DNA from: a virus
Reading direction: 5' to 3' (one strand)
Length of the DNA stretch: 25,809 bases
Virus record (IMG/VR): IMGVR_UViG_3300032006_001586
Span: 1-25,809 of that record
The notes under the pieces were generated by a model. It made no database searches. It saw nothing but the letters and a program-made list of their open reading frames with translations, and was not told where the DNA came from. A program made the translations under genes and the position numbers. Shown here piece after piece: positions 42 through 11,614 of the stretch; within the stretch, counting starts at the first letter, position 1; each line of letters opens with the position of its first letter.

Positions 42-530
42 ATGGACAATATATTAGAAATAATGGTGCCAATCCTGGCATTATTATACATTTATTTGCT
101 ATTTTTTGGAAATAAAATATGGCCCATAAGTAAATTGGATAAATGGGCAAAACGTGAGGATGAAATGAAAACATTATTCAAAAAAGCAGGACAAATTATA
201 ATCAAAGAAGGTGAAGAATCCACAGACGCATATATCATACTGAAGGGTGAAGTGGATGTGGTTAAAAACAACAAAGTAATCGCAACTCTCACGGAAAATT
301 CCTTATTCGGAGAGATTGGATTAGTAGATCAACGACCCAGAACTGCTACTTGTGTAGCAAAAACTGGATGTACTCTCGGGACTGTAACAAGAGAAAACTA
401 TACTAAATTACTGGAACACAGACCCAAAGCCGTACTACCCATATTGAGATTAGTTGCCGATAGAATGAGAAATCTAATGTCATTTGTCGAGGGATTAGCT
501 CATGTACAACCAGATAAAAAAGAGGATTAG
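42..530 (+). CDS. Membrane-anchored cyclic-nucleotide-binding domain protein (Crp/CNBD family)
   Basis: 162 residues. Residues about 5-22 form one hydrophobic segment (ILEIMVPILALLYIYLLFF), followed by a basic linker and then a cyclic-nucleotide-binding beta-roll at about 45-150. The phosphate-binding cassette is visible as FGEIGLVDQRPRTATCVA, matching the family pattern G-E-(L/I)...R-(S/T)-A, so the Glu and Arg that contact the cyclic phosphate and ribose in CRP-like proteins appear to be kept. There is no helix-turn-helix after the roll, so it is not a CRP-type transcription factor. It should sit on the inner membrane with the domain in the cytoplasm. Its end overlaps the next gene by 29 bases, suggesting co-translation. 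The domain call rests on the motif; the ligand and role are unknown. Possible roles are sensing or trapping host cAMP or cyclic-oligonucleotide signals, which is inference only. Confidence 0.8.
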   Translation: MDNILEIMVPILALLYIYLLFFGNKIWPISKLDKWAKREDEMKTLFKKAGQIIIKEGEESTDAYIILKGEVDVVKNNKVIATLTENSLFGEIGLVDQRPRTATCVAKTGCTLGTVTRENYTKLLEHRPKAVLPILRLVADRMRNLMSFVEGLAHVQPDKKED

Positions 531-1023
531 AGAACTTCTTTATATACACCAGAATCCAGACCATGTAAGAGATACATCCAAAATAATCACACTATCCCTC
601 CTGAACCATCCCCAATACCAGAAGGCCAAGTCCATCCATATCTACGAATCCACACATTTTGAAGTGGATACCCAATACATCATCAACCATGCCATGAAAT
701 CCTCAAAGGATATATATCATCCCACCATTGATCCATACGATAATGAACGTAATATAGACTTAGTAATCATCCCAGGACTCGTCTTTGATAACAATCTAAC
801 AAGACATGGAAGAGGTAAAGGATACTATGATAGATACTTACAAGACATAAATGCTTTTAAATGTGCAATTGCATATGATTTCCAAGTAATAAAAGACGGA
901 TCTTTAGAGAGAAAAGAACATGATATACCAATGGACATAATAATCACAGAGACTCATATATATACGAGAGAGATAGATAAGTTTACTATAGAACACACGA
1001 ATAGGCTAATGAATAATGAATAA
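502..1023 (+). CDS. 5-formyltetrahydrofolate cyclo-ligase (MTHFS family)
   Basis: 173 residues, slightly shorter than the usual 180-200. The family converts 5-formyl-THF to 5,10-methenyl-THF using ATP, returning a stored folate to the one-carbon pool in the cytoplasm. The hallmark block is clear: LVIIPGLVFD followed by RHGRGKGYYDRYL (family pattern PG-aFD-RxGxGxGYYDR), and near the C-terminus HDIPMDIIITE, matching the family HD-P-D-iiTe block. The N-terminal substrate-side block (YESTHFEVDTQYII) is also recognisable. The start at 502 has GAGGG upstream at a suitable distance and lies inside the end of the preceding gene, so the pair is probably one transcript. A cyclo-ligase is unusual cargo for a phage. 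A role in feeding one-carbon units to viral thymidylate or purine synthesis would be consistent, but no such gene is visible here. Confidence 0.88.
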   Translation: MYNQIKKRIRELLYIHQNPDHVRDTSKIITLSLLNHPQYQKAKSIHIYESTHFEVDTQYIINHAMKSSKDIYHPTIDPYDNERNIDLVIIPGLVFDNNLTRHGRGKGYYDRYLQDINAFKCAIAYDFQVIKDGSLERKEHDIPMDIIITETHIYTREIDKFTIEHTNRLMNNE

Positions 1024-6147: not shown

Positions 6148-7605
6148 ATGAAATCATTTAGAGAAGCAATCATAGATAAAAATAAAACTAATAATGATGG
6201 ATATTCTGAGTTAGAAGAAGAGCAAGAAGATATAAACATAATTCTTTTAACAGGTTCCAAGTCAGAAGATGATGAGCTTGTTGTCGCACAGATGATTAAG
6301 ACGGCAATCAAAATGAAACAGAAAGCAATAAGAGTTGTAATAGGTAAAGCATGGATTTCTGATTTTGATTTAGACAACAAAACAATAACTATCAAGAACT
6401 ATGAAGATACCGGAAAGGATATTACAATACATACAGAGAAAACTGTTGTTATTGTAAGAGCGGGTGCAATCACAGGAGGGTATGGTGAAATAGGCAGAGC
6501 TATGATTCATGCTTTTCAAGAGTCTGGTTGTTTCATGTTAAATAATTTAAATTCATCTTTGCTTTGTGATAATAAGTTTTTATCTTACATTACTTTTTCA
6601 AGAAATAATATTCCTATACCAAAAACTTCTTTGGTTACAAATGAAAAAGAAATTGAAAATGCACATAAAAGAATTGGTGGTAAGTTCCCAGTAGTTATTA
6701 AAACTCTATCTGGTACACAAGGCATTGGTGTTTCAATAGTTGAAAGTAAACAATCATTAGTATCTGTTATACAGTCATTAAGAAAACATGAAGCAGACTT
6801 GTTAATTCAAGAACATATAAAATTAGATTATGATGTAAGGACACTTGTACTTGGTGGAAGGGTTATTGCTTCCACAAAAAGAAATAAAATTTCAGATGAT
6901 TTTCGTTCCAATGCACATCTTGGAGCAACCACAGAACCATATGTACTTTCAGATAGAGAACAAAAAATTGTAAAAATGGTTGCAAGAACTCTGGGTGGTT
7001 CTTTGGTTGGTGTCGATCATTGTATTGTTGATGGTAAAATATATATTTTAGAATGTAACGCATCACCTGGTATTACATCTAATTATCATAACTACGATAT
7101 AACAAAAGTACCTCAGAAAAATTTAAAAGATGTTGGAACTACGGATGATATATATAAGACGATAATTAATTTTTTACGATACCCATCAAATAGAAACTTG
7201 ACTGGGTTTAAAGAATGTGGTTTTTTAGAACAAGTAACTATTAAAGGATGTGGAACTTTTATTGCAAAGTTTGATACAGGTAGTGGAACTAAGGCTTCAA
7301 TGAAAATAGTTGATAAGATAAAAGTTGAAGGCAATAAAGTTATGTGGGAATTAAAAGGAAAAAAATATGTACATAAGTTAGAAGCATGGAGTCAACCAAG
7401 AACATCTGATTCAGAAAGGACATCTAATCGTCCTGTTATTTTAGTAGATATAGAGTTTAATAATAAAACATATTTAAATATTCCTATTGCCCTTGACTTA
7501 GAAGGTAATAGTGAATTACTTGTAAATAGAAACTTGTTGGAAATTTTAAAGGTGTCAGTTAATCCAGCACAGAAATTTTTATTATCTGAATGGAGACCGA
7601 CATAA
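6148..7605 (+). CDS. RimK-like ATP-grasp ligase fused to RimB-like aspartic-protease domain
   Basis: 485 residues. N-terminus MKSFREAIIDK resembles the capsid-targeting sequence of T4 internal proteins and is followed by an acidic linker with LEEE. Residues about 30-335 form a RimK-type ATP-grasp ligase: PVVIKTLSGTQGIGV (nucleotide-binding loop), DVRTLVLGGRVIAS, DDFRSNAHLGA, and the metal site ILECNASPGI near 300-309. RimK adds glutamate to the C-terminus of ribosomal protein S6, and related enzymes make other peptide-like bonds. Residues about 355-485 resemble RimB/'ATP-dependent zinc protease' (pfam05618), a retropepsin-like fold: GTFIAKFDTGSGTKAS with the DTG motif near 375, then RPVILVDIEF and LLVNRNLLEIL. 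In bacteria these are usually separate genes. The substrate here is unknown; host S6 or a virion protein are options. Confidence 0.82.
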   Translation: MKSFREAIIDKNKTNNDGYSELEEEQEDINIILLTGSKSEDDELVVAQMIKTAIKMKQKAIRVVIGKAWISDFDLDNKTITIKNYEDTGKDITIHTEKTVVIVRAGAITGGYGEIGRAMIHAFQESGCFMLNNLNSSLLCDNKFLSYITFSRNNIPIPKTSLVTNEKEIENAHKRIGGKFPVVIKTLSGTQGIGVSIVESKQSLVSVIQSLRKHEADLLIQEHIKLDYDVRTLVLGGRVIASTKRNKISDDFRSNAHLGATTEPYVLSDREQKIVKMVARTLGGSLVGVDHCIVDGKIYILECNASPGITSNYHNYDITKVPQKNLKDVGTTDDIYKTIINFLRYPSNRNLTGFKECGFLEQVTIKGCGTFIAKFDTGSGTKASMKIVDKIKVEGNKVMWELKGKKYVHKLEAWSQPRTSDSERTSNRPVILVDIEFNNKTYLNIPIALDLEGNSELLVNRNLLEILKVSVNPAQKFLLSEWRPT

Positions 7606-8213
7606 TGTTAAAGAAAGTAGACGGGAAGTGGGCAATTGTTTCTAAGTCTAAAGGTAAACCATTAGTGTATTATAAGGGTGTTGGCAAACCAAGTGAGGAG
7701 TGGGTTGAGAAGGAAGAAAGAAGGATTCAGTATTTCAAAAATAAAAAGGAAGAAACTATGAAAACATATAAAGACTTTACTGAAGGTATGATGTCTTGGA
7801 AAGATATTAAAAATCGTGATCTTAAAAAGACCGGATATAAGAAAAAAGAAAAACTGAAAGGTAAAGAAGTCCTTGCATATAGTGCTGAACATGGAGAATT
7901 TTCCAAATTTAAAGATGAAAAAGAATTGGAAAAAGCAATGCGTGGGACGGGCAAAAAAATGAAATGGATTAAAGTTGAAAGTCTGGAAGAAGCATTCAAT
8001 TTTAAGAGTGCAGTTAAAAATGGATTTCTTGATCCTCCTGACGAGAAGTATGTTAAAGAATTAAAAAAGAAAGGTTGGGAGATTGATGAGTTTAATATCA
8101 CAAGTAAAGGATTTGAAATTACTGTAATCAATAAAAGAAAAGTTAAAAAAACATTTACAGATAAACGTCCTGAACTTGCACTTAAAACTGCTGCTCAAAA
8201 ATCAAAACGATAA
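7605..8213 (+). CDS. Two-part phage protein with internal capsid-targeting-like start
   Basis: 202 residues from the ATG that overlaps the upstream stop as TAATG, with GGAG nine bases before it. Residues 1-50 (MLKKVDGKWAIVSKSKGKPL, then GKPSEEWVEKEERRIQYFK) match a short conserved module seen in many T4-like marine phages. Residue 52 is a second Met opening MKTYKDFTEG, like the N-termini of the two genes upstream and of T4 internal proteins, and it has its own AGGAAG. The rest is very Lys-rich (about 80-130) and ends in a mixed region with FEITVINKRKVKKTFTD. Thus the locus may give a full-length protein and a 151-residue shorter one, or may be a fusion of two ancestral genes. Biochemical role unknown; DNA contact in the head is possible from its charge. 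Confidence 0.65.
   Translation: MLKKVDGKWAIVSKSKGKPLVYYKGVGKPSEEWVEKEERRIQYFKNKKEETMKTYKDFTEGMMSWKDIKNRDLKKTGYKKKEKLKGKEVLAYSAEHGEFSKFKDEKELEKAMRGTGKKMKWIKVESLEEAFNFKSAVKNGFLDPPDEKYVKELKKKGWEIDEFNITSKGFEITVINKRKVKKTFTDKRPELALKTAAQKSKR
7747..7760 (+). promoter_or_regulatory. Internal ribosome binding site and in-frame start
   Basis: AGGAAG at 7747-7752 lies five bases before the in-frame ATG at 7758-7760 inside the 7605-8213 gene. The product from this start would begin MKTYKDFTEG, a capsid-targeting-like sequence, so internal initiation would make a packaging-competent short form. Confidence 0.45.
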
Positions 8214-8214
8214 A

Positions 8215-8622
8215 ATGCCAAACGCTTTTATATACAATATGGATGGAGAAAAAACTTTGTTACCAAAAGGAAAATTAACTGAGCATTTTTCCAAGAAAGA
8301 ATTTGATTGTAGATGCGGTTGTGATACTGGGCCAATCAATATGATACTTGTTCAAAAATTAGAACAAGCAAGAATAGAATATGCCAGACCGATGAGAATC
8401 AATAGCGGTATTCGTTGCTTACATCATAATCGTTCCATAGGTAGTAGAGATACTTCTTCTCATATTAAATGTCTTGCAGCCGATGTTGGTTGTATTGGTA
8501 TGGAAGAACGACATAAGATGCTTAGTATCTTTCTTAAATATTTTTTACGAGTCGGTGTTCATAAAGAATTTATTCATGTTGACGTTGATCCTGATAAACC
8601 GAAAGGAGTATTTGTTTATTAA
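8215..8622 (+). CDS. M15-family peptidoglycan peptidase (endolysin-like)
   Basis: 135 residues from the ATG two bases after the upstream stop; an earlier in-frame TTG has no support. The protein matches the Peptidase_M15A group, zinc enzymes that cut peptide cross-links of peptidoglycan: LTEHFSKKEFDCRCGC near the start, the MRINSGIRCLHHN block, the metal-binding SSHIKCLAADVG (His and Asp ligands) and FIHVDVD (second His). The usual Gly in 'SSHxxGxAaD' is Cys here. The activity could be host lysis or local wall digestion during injection. It has no signal peptide or membrane segment, so if it is the endolysin it needs a holin; one of the membrane micropeptides could serve, but they lie in the early block. 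It sits just before the baseplate genes. Confidence 0.82.
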   Translation: MPNAFIYNMDGEKTLLPKGKLTEHFSKKEFDCRCGCDTGPINMILVQKLEQARIEYARPMRINSGIRCLHHNRSIGSRDTSSHIKCLAADVGCIGMEERHKMLSIFLKYFLRVGVHKEFIHVDVDPDKPKGVFVY

Positions 8623-8623
8623 C

Positions 8624-8636
8624 AGGAGGCTAAATG
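8624..8636 (+). promoter_or_regulatory. Strong ribosome binding site facing an out-of-frame ATG
   Basis: AGGAGG (8624-8629) is four bases before the ATG at 8634. That frame reads MFTNDYAKRCYRNF and stops at 8676-8678. The long protein of this locus is in the next frame (ATG at 8644, 14 bases from the AGGAGG). The run AAAA at 8655-8658 is where one base fewer would join both frames as MFTNDYAKDAIETFKRF. Confidence 0.6.
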
Positions 8637-8643
8637 TTTACTA

Positions 8644-9117
8644 ATGACTATGCTAAAAGATGCTATCGAAACTTTTAAAAGATTTGATACATATAAGGAA
8701 CCATCATCTATACATTGGTTTGTGTGGTTAATTGAAAATCCGAAATCACCATTTAGTTTAACAGGTGCAATTGATTTATATAACCATGACATTATTCATA
8801 TCTTACTCGGTAGGGGTATGGATGTTAAAGATGAAGCATTGGTTATAGGATTCACTATGGGGAATAGTGAATATACCAACAGTCTTGTTAAATGGTTATT
8901 TTTACTTTGTGCAAGAATGTTATATCCTTCCGGATATAGATTTGGTGATGCAGAGATAAAAGAATATAATCGTGGGTATTCTTATGGATTAACAAGACGC
9001 AAACGAAATATACACTTAGAAATTTTTGATATTGAAGAGGATGTTTCAGACATTAGAAGAAGGTTCGGTATTAACCATATTGATTTAAAAGATTATCCAA
9101 ATCTTTCGACATTTTAG
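8644..9117 (+). CDS. Coq4-like metal-site protein
   Basis: 157 residues from ATG 8644. The segment LYNHDIIHILLGRGMDVKDE contains HDxxH followed after eleven residues by Glu, which is the metal-binding signature of the ubiquinone-biosynthesis protein Coq4. Around it, SSIHWFVWLIENPKSPFSL and ALVIGFTMGN look like a conserved family also found, as I recall, in cyanobacteria and marine phages. Coq4 binds zinc and a lipid-quinone site at membranes. Here a helical soluble protein is predicted, with one more hydrophobic helix near WLFLLCARMLY. The function in a phage is unknown. The true start is uncertain: the best ribosome binding site serves an ATG ten bases upstream in another frame, so the first residues may be MFTNDYAK with an indel. 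Confidence 0.6.
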   Translation: MTMLKDAIETFKRFDTYKEPSSIHWFVWLIENPKSPFSLTGAIDLYNHDIIHILLGRGMDVKDEALVIGFTMGNSEYTNSLVKWLFLLCARMLYPSGYRFGDAEIKEYNRGYSYGLTRRKRNIHLEIFDIEEDVSDIRRRFGINHIDLKDYPNLSTF

Positions 9118-9127
9118 GGATTGAAGT

Positions 9128-9135
9128 TATAAATA
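9128..9135 (+). promoter_or_regulatory. T4-type late promoter box
   Basis: Exact TATAAATA 15 bases before the start of the small basic protein gene. The transcript would begin only a few bases before the ribosome binding site AGAGGA, leaving a very short leader. Confidence 0.75.
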
Positions 9136-9150
9136 TTCAGAGGATTTAAT

Positions 9151-9291
9151 ATGATTAAAGTAAAAGAAACTACAAGGAAAAGCAATAGAGTAAAGAAAGT
9201 TACTTCTATTGGAGCTCATTCAACAAGAAGCAGACCAAAGAATAAACACAAGAAAAGAAATTGGAAACGATATAGAGGACAAGGTAAGTAA
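9151..9291 (+). CDS. Small, highly basic conserved phage protein (46 aa)
   Basis: 46 codons starting MIKVKETTRKSNRVKKVTSI and ending NKHKKRNWKRYRGQGK. Lys and Arg make up well over a third of the residues. AGAGGA precedes the ATG, and a late promoter box lies just upstream. Small basic proteins ending in a (K)YRGQG(R/K)-like tail occur in many marine T4-like phages next to structural genes, by my recollection. The charge suggests DNA or RNA binding, perhaps in the head, but the function is unknown. Confidence 0.65.
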   Translation: MIKVKETTRKSNRVKKVTSIGAHSTRSRPKNKHKKRNWKRYRGQGK

Positions 9292-9309
9292 TAATTGAAC
9301 CTACCCACA

Positions 9310-9317
9310 TATAAATA
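9310..9317 (+). promoter_or_regulatory. T4-type late promoter box
   Basis: Exact TATAAATA 42 bases before the gp25-like gene. It heads the baseplate run gp25-gp6-gene 7 position, which has only overlaps or one-base gaps and so is probably one late transcript. Confidence 0.8.
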
Positions 9318-9359
9318 GTAACATAAAAAAAATATCAATACAAGGAAAAAGATCAAACA

Positions 9360-9776: not shown

Positions 9777-11614
9777 TGCCAACATCCGATAAGTTAGCAA
9801 TCACCGATTTAGAGTTTGACACCATCAAGACAAATTTAAAAACATTCCTTAAGGCACAATCACAATTTGCAGATTACGATTTTGAAGGTAGTGGTATGTC
9901 TGTTCTAATTGACCTTCTTGCATACAATACTCATTATATTGGGTACTATGCAAATATGCTTGGTAATGAAATGTTTTTGGATTCTTCATCTTTGAGAGAA
10001 TCAATTATATCTCATGCAAAACATCTCAACGTCATGCCCACTTCTAGGAGAGCATCAAAGGCAAAATTAAATTTTACTTTTAGACCTTCTGGCACTCCTA
10101 CCACTTTAACGATTGCAAAAGGCACCCAGTTCACTTCAACTATAAATGGTATTGCATATACTTTTGTAACTAACGCTGCAACCTCAGTTCCAAGATCAGT
10201 CCTTGGAACATATATTGCACTTGCCGTAGAAGTTACTGAAGGAAAAATTTTAAATAAAGCATATACAGTAGTTGATGATAGTACTCAACGATTTATTATT
10301 CCAAATGTAAATATAGATACGTCAACTATTACAGTTAAAGTTCAAAAGGCATCTGGTGATTCAGAAGTGTTTACATACACAAACGGTGATGCCGTTGATG
10401 TAACTACGATCAAGGGAACTGATAGAGTTTATTTTTTACAAGAGATAGAAGATCAAAAATATGAGATTACATTTGGTGATGGTACAGTAGGCAAACAACT
10501 ATCAACTGGCAATATTGTTTTTATTGAATACATTGTTAGTAATGGTACACTTGCTAATAAAGCATCTTCTTTTACACCAGTAGCAACTGTTGCAGGCTTG
10601 AGTATTGGTTCCGGAACACCAGGTTTTGATTTGACTACTAATACAAATGCAACTGGTGGTGCTGATCTACAAACTGCTAGTTCTATACAATTTCAAGCAC
10701 CTAAACTTTATCAAGCACAGAAAAGAGCTACAACTAAAAATGATTACAAAGCAGTAATATTGGAACAAAGGTCTGATATAGAATCTATCACAGTCTATGG
10801 TGGTGAGGATGCAGATCCTGTTCAGTATGGAAAAGTTTTTGTTGCTGTTAAACCAACGGGTAATAATACTTTTAGTGTTAATGCAAAAAATTCTATTAAA
10901 AATGATATATTGAAAAAAGTAAATGTTGTGACCGTGACTCCTGAAATTGTTGATCCTATTTTTTATTATCTTATTATAGAGAGTACAGTTAATTATGATC
11001 CTGTTACAAACTTGACAACTGAAGCAACTTTGAAAACAAATATTAATACTTCCATAACAAATTATATTACAAATAATTTAAAAAAGTTTGACCAGAAATT
11101 TCGTTATTCAAAATTAGTTCAGGATATTGATAATACATCCGATGCTATTAGAAATAATAAAACTACTATTAAGTATCAACAAAGAATAACTCCTACAACA
11201 TTGAACCTGGCAGCAAATTACACTTTGAATTTTAGTAACGCATTAGAAAAAGGTACTGTTAGTTCTACATCATTTGTTGGTACTGATGGCAATACATATT
11301 CTTTGGTTGACGATTCCTTAGGAATAATTAAAGCAGCAAGAACTACTAGTGGTGTTGTTGACAGTCCAAAATTATATTTGATACAGACGGATGGTTCAAC
11401 CGATCAGGGTACAGTTGATTATACAACAGGAAAGGTTGTATTAACTAATTTACAACCTGTAACAATTTCTGATGGTACTGGTGATATAAGATTCAATGTT
11501 ACACCTGAGATTAATAATAGTGATATTACACCATTGAGAGAACAAATTTTAACATACGATTCGACAGACACAACGGCAATTACTATTAACATGGTAGCAG
11601 AGACAATAATCTAA
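9776..11614 (+). CDS. 6: Baseplate wedge subunit, gp6-like (Baseplate J family)
   Basis: 612 residues against 660 in T4 gp6. gp6 dimers form the ring that holds the baseplate wedges together. The N-terminal region DLEFDTIKTNLKTFLKAQSQ, then SGMSVLIDLLAYNTHYIGYY and SLRESIISHAKHLNVMPTS is the strongly conserved gp6 signature. The middle shows baseplate-J type beta regions (YEITFGDGTVGKQLSTGN; ATTKNDYKAVILEQRSDIES). The C-terminal 100 residues are a beta-rich extension. It is coupled to gp25 by a TAATG overlap and followed after one base by the next structural gene. Confidence 0.93.
   Translation: MPTSDKLAITDLEFDTIKTNLKTFLKAQSQFADYDFEGSGMSVLIDLLAYNTHYIGYYANMLGNEMFLDSSSLRESIISHAKHLNVMPTSRRASKAKLNFTFRPSGTPTTLTIAKGTQFTSTINGIAYTFVTNAATSVPRSVLGTYIALAVEVTEGKILNKAYTVVDDSTQRFIIPNVNIDTSTITVKVQKASGDSEVFTYTNGDAVDVTTIKGTDRVYFLQEIEDQKYEITFGDGTVGKQLSTGNIVFIEYIVSNGTLANKASSFTPVATVAGLSIGSGTPGFDLTTNTNATGGADLQTASSIQFQAPKLYQAQKRATTKNDYKAVILEQRSDIESITVYGGEDADPVQYGKVFVAVKPTGNNTFSVNAKNSIKNDILKKVNVVTVTPEIVDPIFYYLIIESTVNYDPVTNLTTEATLKTNINTSITNYITNNLKKFDQKFRYSKLVQDIDNTSDAIRNNKTTIKYQQRITPTTLNLAANYTLNFSNALEKGTVSSTSFVGTDGNTYSLVDDSLGIIKAARTTSGVVDSPKLYLIQTDGSTDQGTVDYTTGKVVLTNLQPVTISDGTGDIRFNVTPEINNSDITPLREQILTYDSTDTTAITINMVAETII

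Follow-up and report, generated by a model that had tools for sequence, protein, structure and literature searches.

The window, that is the whole stretch of 25,809 nucleotides analysed here (positions 1 to 25,809 of the IMG/VR virus record IMGVR_UViG_3300032006_001586), carries near its 5' end an open reading frame of 162 aa, confirmed at 42..530 on the plus strand. Its conserved part is a shorter gene for a cyclic nucleotide-binding domain (CNBD), and the following features were assigned in and around it:

42..164, plus strand: 41 additional codons upstream in the same frame, unique to the contig and including a hydrophobic segment; translation doubtful (no relative, weak Shine-Dalgarno sequence, hydropathy)
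60..87, plus strand: terminator-like 12-bp stem-loop within the extension (nt 56-92 fold with −13.6 kcal/mol, z about −3.2)
156..160, plus strand: Shine-Dalgarno-like GAGGA, 4-5 nt 5' of ATG 165 (sequence reading and scoring)
165..530, plus strand: conserved gene for a minimal stand-alone CNBD, 121 aa, start MKT (DNA homology, start sites of relatives, Shine-Dalgarno sequence, PF00027, AlphaFold2)
306..350, plus strand: phosphate-binding cassette FGEIGLVDQRPRTAT, ORF residues 89-103 (invariant residues; match to CRP G71, E72, R82, S83 and A84)
423..500, plus strand: C-terminal helix, ORF residues 128-153, corresponding to the CRP dimerisation helix (structure model and alignment)
502..1023, plus strand: 5-formyltetrahydrofolate cyclo-ligase gene, whose first 29 nt lie within the CNBD gene (PF01812, 97.5 bits)

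The first-pass annotation of this DNA had described a CNBD with an apparently intact phosphate-binding cassette and without a DNA-binding domain, and our findings support all three statements. PF00027 matches ORF residues 48-126 with 66 bits (E 2.9e-18, curated cut-off 27.5), and a comparison with the PDB gave 143 sequences at E ≤ 0.001, with PKG and PKA regulatory subunits on top and the SthK channel lower. An AlphaFold2 model of nt 165-527, built with 67 sequences, reached a pLDDT of 82. The structural comparison with CRP that had been proposed recovered the CNBD beta-roll, the cassette and the C-helix, the Foldseek matches being Thermus CAP (TM 0.83), M. tuberculosis CRP with cAMP (TM 0.82) and E. 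coli CRP (TM 0.78). A first model, made from five sequences with the membrane segment included, reached a pLDDT of 64 and was set aside because of its low confidence. Nothing resembling a DNA-binding domain follows the CNBD and no Pfam HTH model matches; DNA-binding, TIR, EAL and channel domains as well as N-terminal helices are absent from all members of the family. The phage proteins comprise 109-148 aa (121 in the window), extending from the first beta strand to the end of the C-helix. Of 58 bacterial relatives nearly all are longer; the shortest has 136 aa, and most possess about 27-32 residues ahead of the roll.

Scans of viral contigs revealed the CNBD gene in 12 other IMG/VR contigs, here designated by L numbers, and a rescan of the viral contigs with the full family profile yielded no further members. 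Together with the window's own protein there are nine distinct full-length sequences, to which contig L007 adds a gene-tail fragment. Identity to the window protein amounts to 53-89% over the core and, for L002, to 92% over the matched segment. The phage sequences form a single clade with a support of 100/100 in a tree of 67 rows, and in 84,980 bacterial and archaeal genomes nothing closer was found than a generic double CNBD with 40% identity. PHROGs contains no family for these proteins, and a search of 50,697 phage records did not find the family but only CRP-annotated proteins or distant CNBDs with less than 30% identity. A search of a library of predicted viral structures gave a single further CNBD that is convincing, a full-length Crp-like protein. 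No report of CNBDs in phages, or as auxiliary genes of cyanophages, emerged from the literature searched, and the papers on pelagimyophages and Melnitz do not mention a CNBD protein. The gene is under strong purifying selection, as the comparison of the window with L002 gives dN 0.056, dS 0.99 and dN/dS about 0.06.

The earlier assignment of the window to a T4-like phage also holds. Baseplate genes of this type (gp25, gp6 and gp7-like) lie downstream of the CNBD gene, and T4-type genes (gp32, gp41, gp61 and gp48-like) are present in L003, L006 and L024. The nearest relatives of the window gp6 are found in Pelagibacter phage HTVC008M (41.5%), Mosig and the Methylophilales Melnitz phages. The members with genomic context are marine T4-like phages related to Pelagibacter and Methylophilales myophages. 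Permuted two-piece tmRNA genes of the alphaproteobacterial type were noticed in L002 (17375-17720), L003 (2536-2892), L005 (440-832) and L007 (6466-6811), the Rfam check covering L002 alone among these four contigs. Such genes are already known from Melnitz and pelagimyophages (PMC9004378), and their type hints at an alphaproteobacterial or SAR11-like host.

In the ligand pocket, the cassette residues G, E, P, R, T, A and T are invariant in 9/9 distinct full-length phage sequences. The equivalents of CRP G71, E72, R82, A84 and R123 (window Arg141) are unchanged throughout, S83 is replaced by Thr, and the C-helix carries one more Arg that is invariant. The position of CRP T127 is occupied by Leu or Thr and that of S128 by Met or Leu (Met146 in the window). 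The latter position reads adenine in CRP, is the uracil-reading Asn143 in PycTIR and a Glu in a cGMP receptor, while PycTIR uses R138 for stacking against the base (PMC11224242). Ribose-phosphate capture thus appears intact; base choice, in turn, probably differs from that of CRP, PycTIR and this cGMP receptor and is possibly loose, since the base-reading position is hydrophobic.

That the protein soaks up or senses a cyclic nucleotide is the best reading of the locus and is compatible with all findings. As judged from sequence and predicted structure, the gene would give rise to a cytosolic, phage-specific, minimal CNBD that would dimerise through its C-helix as CRP does, bind a 3',5'-cyclic mononucleotide during infection and act by sequestering it, thereby depriving host receptors, either a Pycsar-kind defence receptor (cUMP/cCMP) or the host's own receptor for cAMP or cGMP. 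We give binding and sequestration by the minimal phage CNBD a probability of roughly 40%. It fits best because the capture site is intact and there is no part to signal through, an output domain being absent from every member. There are precedents: the phage sponges Tad1, Tad2 and Acb2 sequester signals (PMC12043709), cyclic mononucleotides are genuine phage-defence signals and are targeted by phages by means of Apyc1 (PMC9117128), and the cUMP receptor PycTIR is known, among others, from the alphaproteobacteria Pseudovibrio and Novosphingobium (PMC11224242). Several points count against sequestration. CNBD-only proteins are common in bacteria (about 31 of the 58 relatives have ORFs of less than 190 aa), and sequestration is not their presumed role; the gene surroundings are metabolic, with no recognised anti-defence island; the phage proteins lack the polar residue that reads the base in CRP and PycTIR; and the resemblance to PycTIR is non-specific. 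CNBD pockets of the CRP/PKA kind accommodate a cyclic mononucleotide. The cyclic oligonucleotides of CBASS or type III CRISPR, which the first-pass annotation had also considered, are therefore unlikely ligands; cAMP, cGMP, cCMP or cUMP would be the signals of relevance.

Comparison with established systems brings out what is particular to the phage proteins. With the CRP/CAP factors of E. coli, M. tuberculosis and Thermus they share the fold (TM 0.78-0.83), the dimer helix and the cassette residues, but they lack the DNA-binding domain and the N-terminal helices, have Met or Leu in place of S128 and are only about 25% identical; the NCBIfam CRP model scores 43 bits against a cut-off of 266. 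In CNBD-EAL proteins of the Bd1971 type and of Thiobacillus the CNBD likewise begins near the first beta strand (about 28-30% identity in structural alignments, with L026/L027 among the best bacterial matches); these proteins carry an EAL domain, whereas the phage protein stops after the C-helix. The Pycsar receptor for cUMP, PycTIR, has a CNBD with the same G, E and R cassette residues, and the equivalent of its R138 is retained in the phage proteins; its TIR domain, however, has no counterpart in any phage member, and the position of its uracil-reading N143 is Met or Leu. A match to the Pycsar PycTIR/TIR effector model of PADLOC (E about 1e-14) was rejected, as generic bacterial CNBDs score equally well or better. 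Bacterial CNBD-only proteins such as L029 and L030 are also single-domain CNBDs but differ by their length (136-184 aa), about 30 residues of N-terminal helix and an identity to the phage clade of at most 40%. Among counter-defence proteins, Tad1, Tad2, Acb2 and Acb4 are likewise small single-domain phage proteins, possibly with signal sequestering in common, but their folds are unrelated and their ligands are cyclic oligonucleotides or forms of cADPR. To our knowledge there is no CNBD among these four. The earlier statement that no sponge of such an architecture is known holds. Apyc1 resembles the phage CNBD in being a phage protein that targets cyclic mononucleotides, on which it acts with relaxed base specificity (PMC9117128); it is, however, an enzyme of the metallo-beta-lactamase fold that degrades the signal, whereas the phage CNBD has no catalytic site.

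The main rival to sequestration is a sensor or regulatory subunit that, once the nucleotide is bound, would engage a phage or host protein and so tune host takeover or metabolism, a possibility to which we lean less. In the sub-lineage of the window its partner could be the translationally coupled 5-formyltetrahydrofolate cyclo-ligase. A triad of genes for a NifU-like scaffold, the CNBD and the cyclo-ligase occurs in L010 and L022/L023, the pair of CNBD and cyclo-ligase in the window, and the latter two genes overlap by 29 nt in the window, 4 nt in L010 and 32 nt in L022. A further point in favour of a sensor is that some residues are invariant specifically in the phage proteins, among them Cys104, Asn119-Tyr120 and the MKT start. 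On the other hand, the neighbours elsewhere are different, namely a nuclease in L002, an aldehyde dehydrogenase in L009, where a NifU-like scaffold gene also precedes the CNBD gene, and a nucleotide-modification-type protein in L005; a cyclo-ligase was not found in 9 of the 12 records, all nine of which are fragments. Genes near the CNBD gene in various members further include PurC or PurM, ferredoxin, IscA-like protein and 2-oxoacid oxidoreductase, of which PurM, like the aldehyde dehydrogenase, is presumed from reading the sequences, and the surroundings in L003, L005 and L006 are quite different (FTR1-like permease, gp32, gp41, gp61). A search of the 13 records for a partner cyclase (PF00211) found none. 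What is conserved is the CNBD protein and not any single neighbourhood, which argues against a fixed neighbour as the target.

The first-pass annotation had furthermore proposed a membrane-tethered protein; on this reading the 162-aa form would be made and would hold the pocket at the inner membrane. We consider this unlikely. The tether is not a feature of the family, as 8/8 other full-length members begin at the MKT that corresponds to window Met42 (nt 165). For the window itself the tether is doubtful. In its favour, the frame is open across 42-530 and encodes a strongly hydrophobic segment (Kyte-Doolittle maximum 2.45 over 19 residues) followed by basic residues. Open stretches of 41 codons that are as hydrophobic are rare by chance: when the phage's own genes were read off-frame, 20 of 2,910 pieces contained one (about 0.7%), and in shuffles the chance is 5 in 100,000. 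L006 has a separate hydrophobic ORF of 41 aa (9910-10035) that overlaps the CNBD start in another frame. Against translation of the extension speaks that DNA homology sets in only at nt 165 (L002, L024) or nt 164 (L009), and that the 41 upstream codons are missing from all other members, even from the 92% identical L002. They are unique to the window contig, no relatives of the membrane segment being found in viral contigs. Furthermore, the Shine-Dalgarno interaction amounts to −6.0 kcal/mol at nt 165 compared with −2.8 at nt 42 (most genes of the phage: −3 to −7), and the stem-loop at 60-87 lies within the extension. No stop codon interrupts this frame between the ORF and the edge of the contig (nt 3), so that initiation at nt 42 is not established either. 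Synonymous-codon scores are the same for the extension and the CNBD core and do not discriminate, and a promoter scan gave no signal above chance. Because of the onset of homology, the MKT starts, the Shine-Dalgarno sequence, the stem-loop and the lack of relatives of the extension, we lean towards initiation at nt 165 as the source of the main product; a membrane-anchored form may exist in the window phage alone but is not needed for the best explanation. A strong stem-loop of ~15 bp (GACTAGCCATCA / TGATGGCTAGTC) was also seen in L002 at about 9905-9953, directly upstream of the CNBD gene, and the upstream stem-loops of both phages may be transcription terminators.

It is rather improbable that the protein acts as a dominant-negative partner of a host CRP-type regulator, forming mixed dimers via the C-helix in which one DNA-binding arm is lost. 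The model does span the N-domain and dimer helix of CRP and nothing further, and the R123 equivalent and the second C-helix Arg are invariant; identity to E. coli CRP, however, is as low as about 25%, and none of the 84,980 genomes holds a host CRP to which a phage member is close. Least probable is a degenerate or structural CNBD devoid of nucleotide binding, for although the base-reading residue is lost and PF00027 takes in non-binding domains too, the ribose- and phosphate-contacting residues are invariant down to 53% identity and purifying selection is strong.

Returning to sequestration, the more far-reaching proposal that this marine phage family comprises the first known cyclic-mononucleotide sponges, a pocket-only receptor domain with relaxed base reading that blunts Pycsar and/or host cAMP signalling, is put forward tentatively and may well prove wrong. 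If true, it would constitute a counter-defence against Pycsar that is absent from the literature searched, the known anti-Pycsar protein being an enzyme. Alternatively, it would give phages a direct means of influencing cAMP-type regulation in marine bacteria of the kind that Pelagibacter and OM43 phages infect.

Some further genes deserve mention. Besides the one in the window, cyclo-ligase genes (PF01812) are located at 3904-4368 in L010 and 10356-10823 in L022; the corresponding PHROGs family, phrog_6697, is listed with function unknown and has apparently not been described as a cyclo-ligase. In L022 the gene occurs together with purC and a pterin dehydratase gene, which suggests that the phage supports one-carbon and purine metabolism. 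L002 contains an iron-sulphur gene set at 6864-9345, in which 2-oxoacid:ferredoxin oxidoreductase beta, NifU-like, ferredoxin and IscA-like genes lie close together. In the window, about 700 bases without a convincing gene (1024-1737) harbour four copies of a CTCTCAGAGAACCACAGAGA-like repeat and gave no match in an Rfam search, and a RimK-like ATP-grasp ligase (PF08443, 122 bits) is encoded at 6148-7605, with a 37% identical relative in L006/L008.
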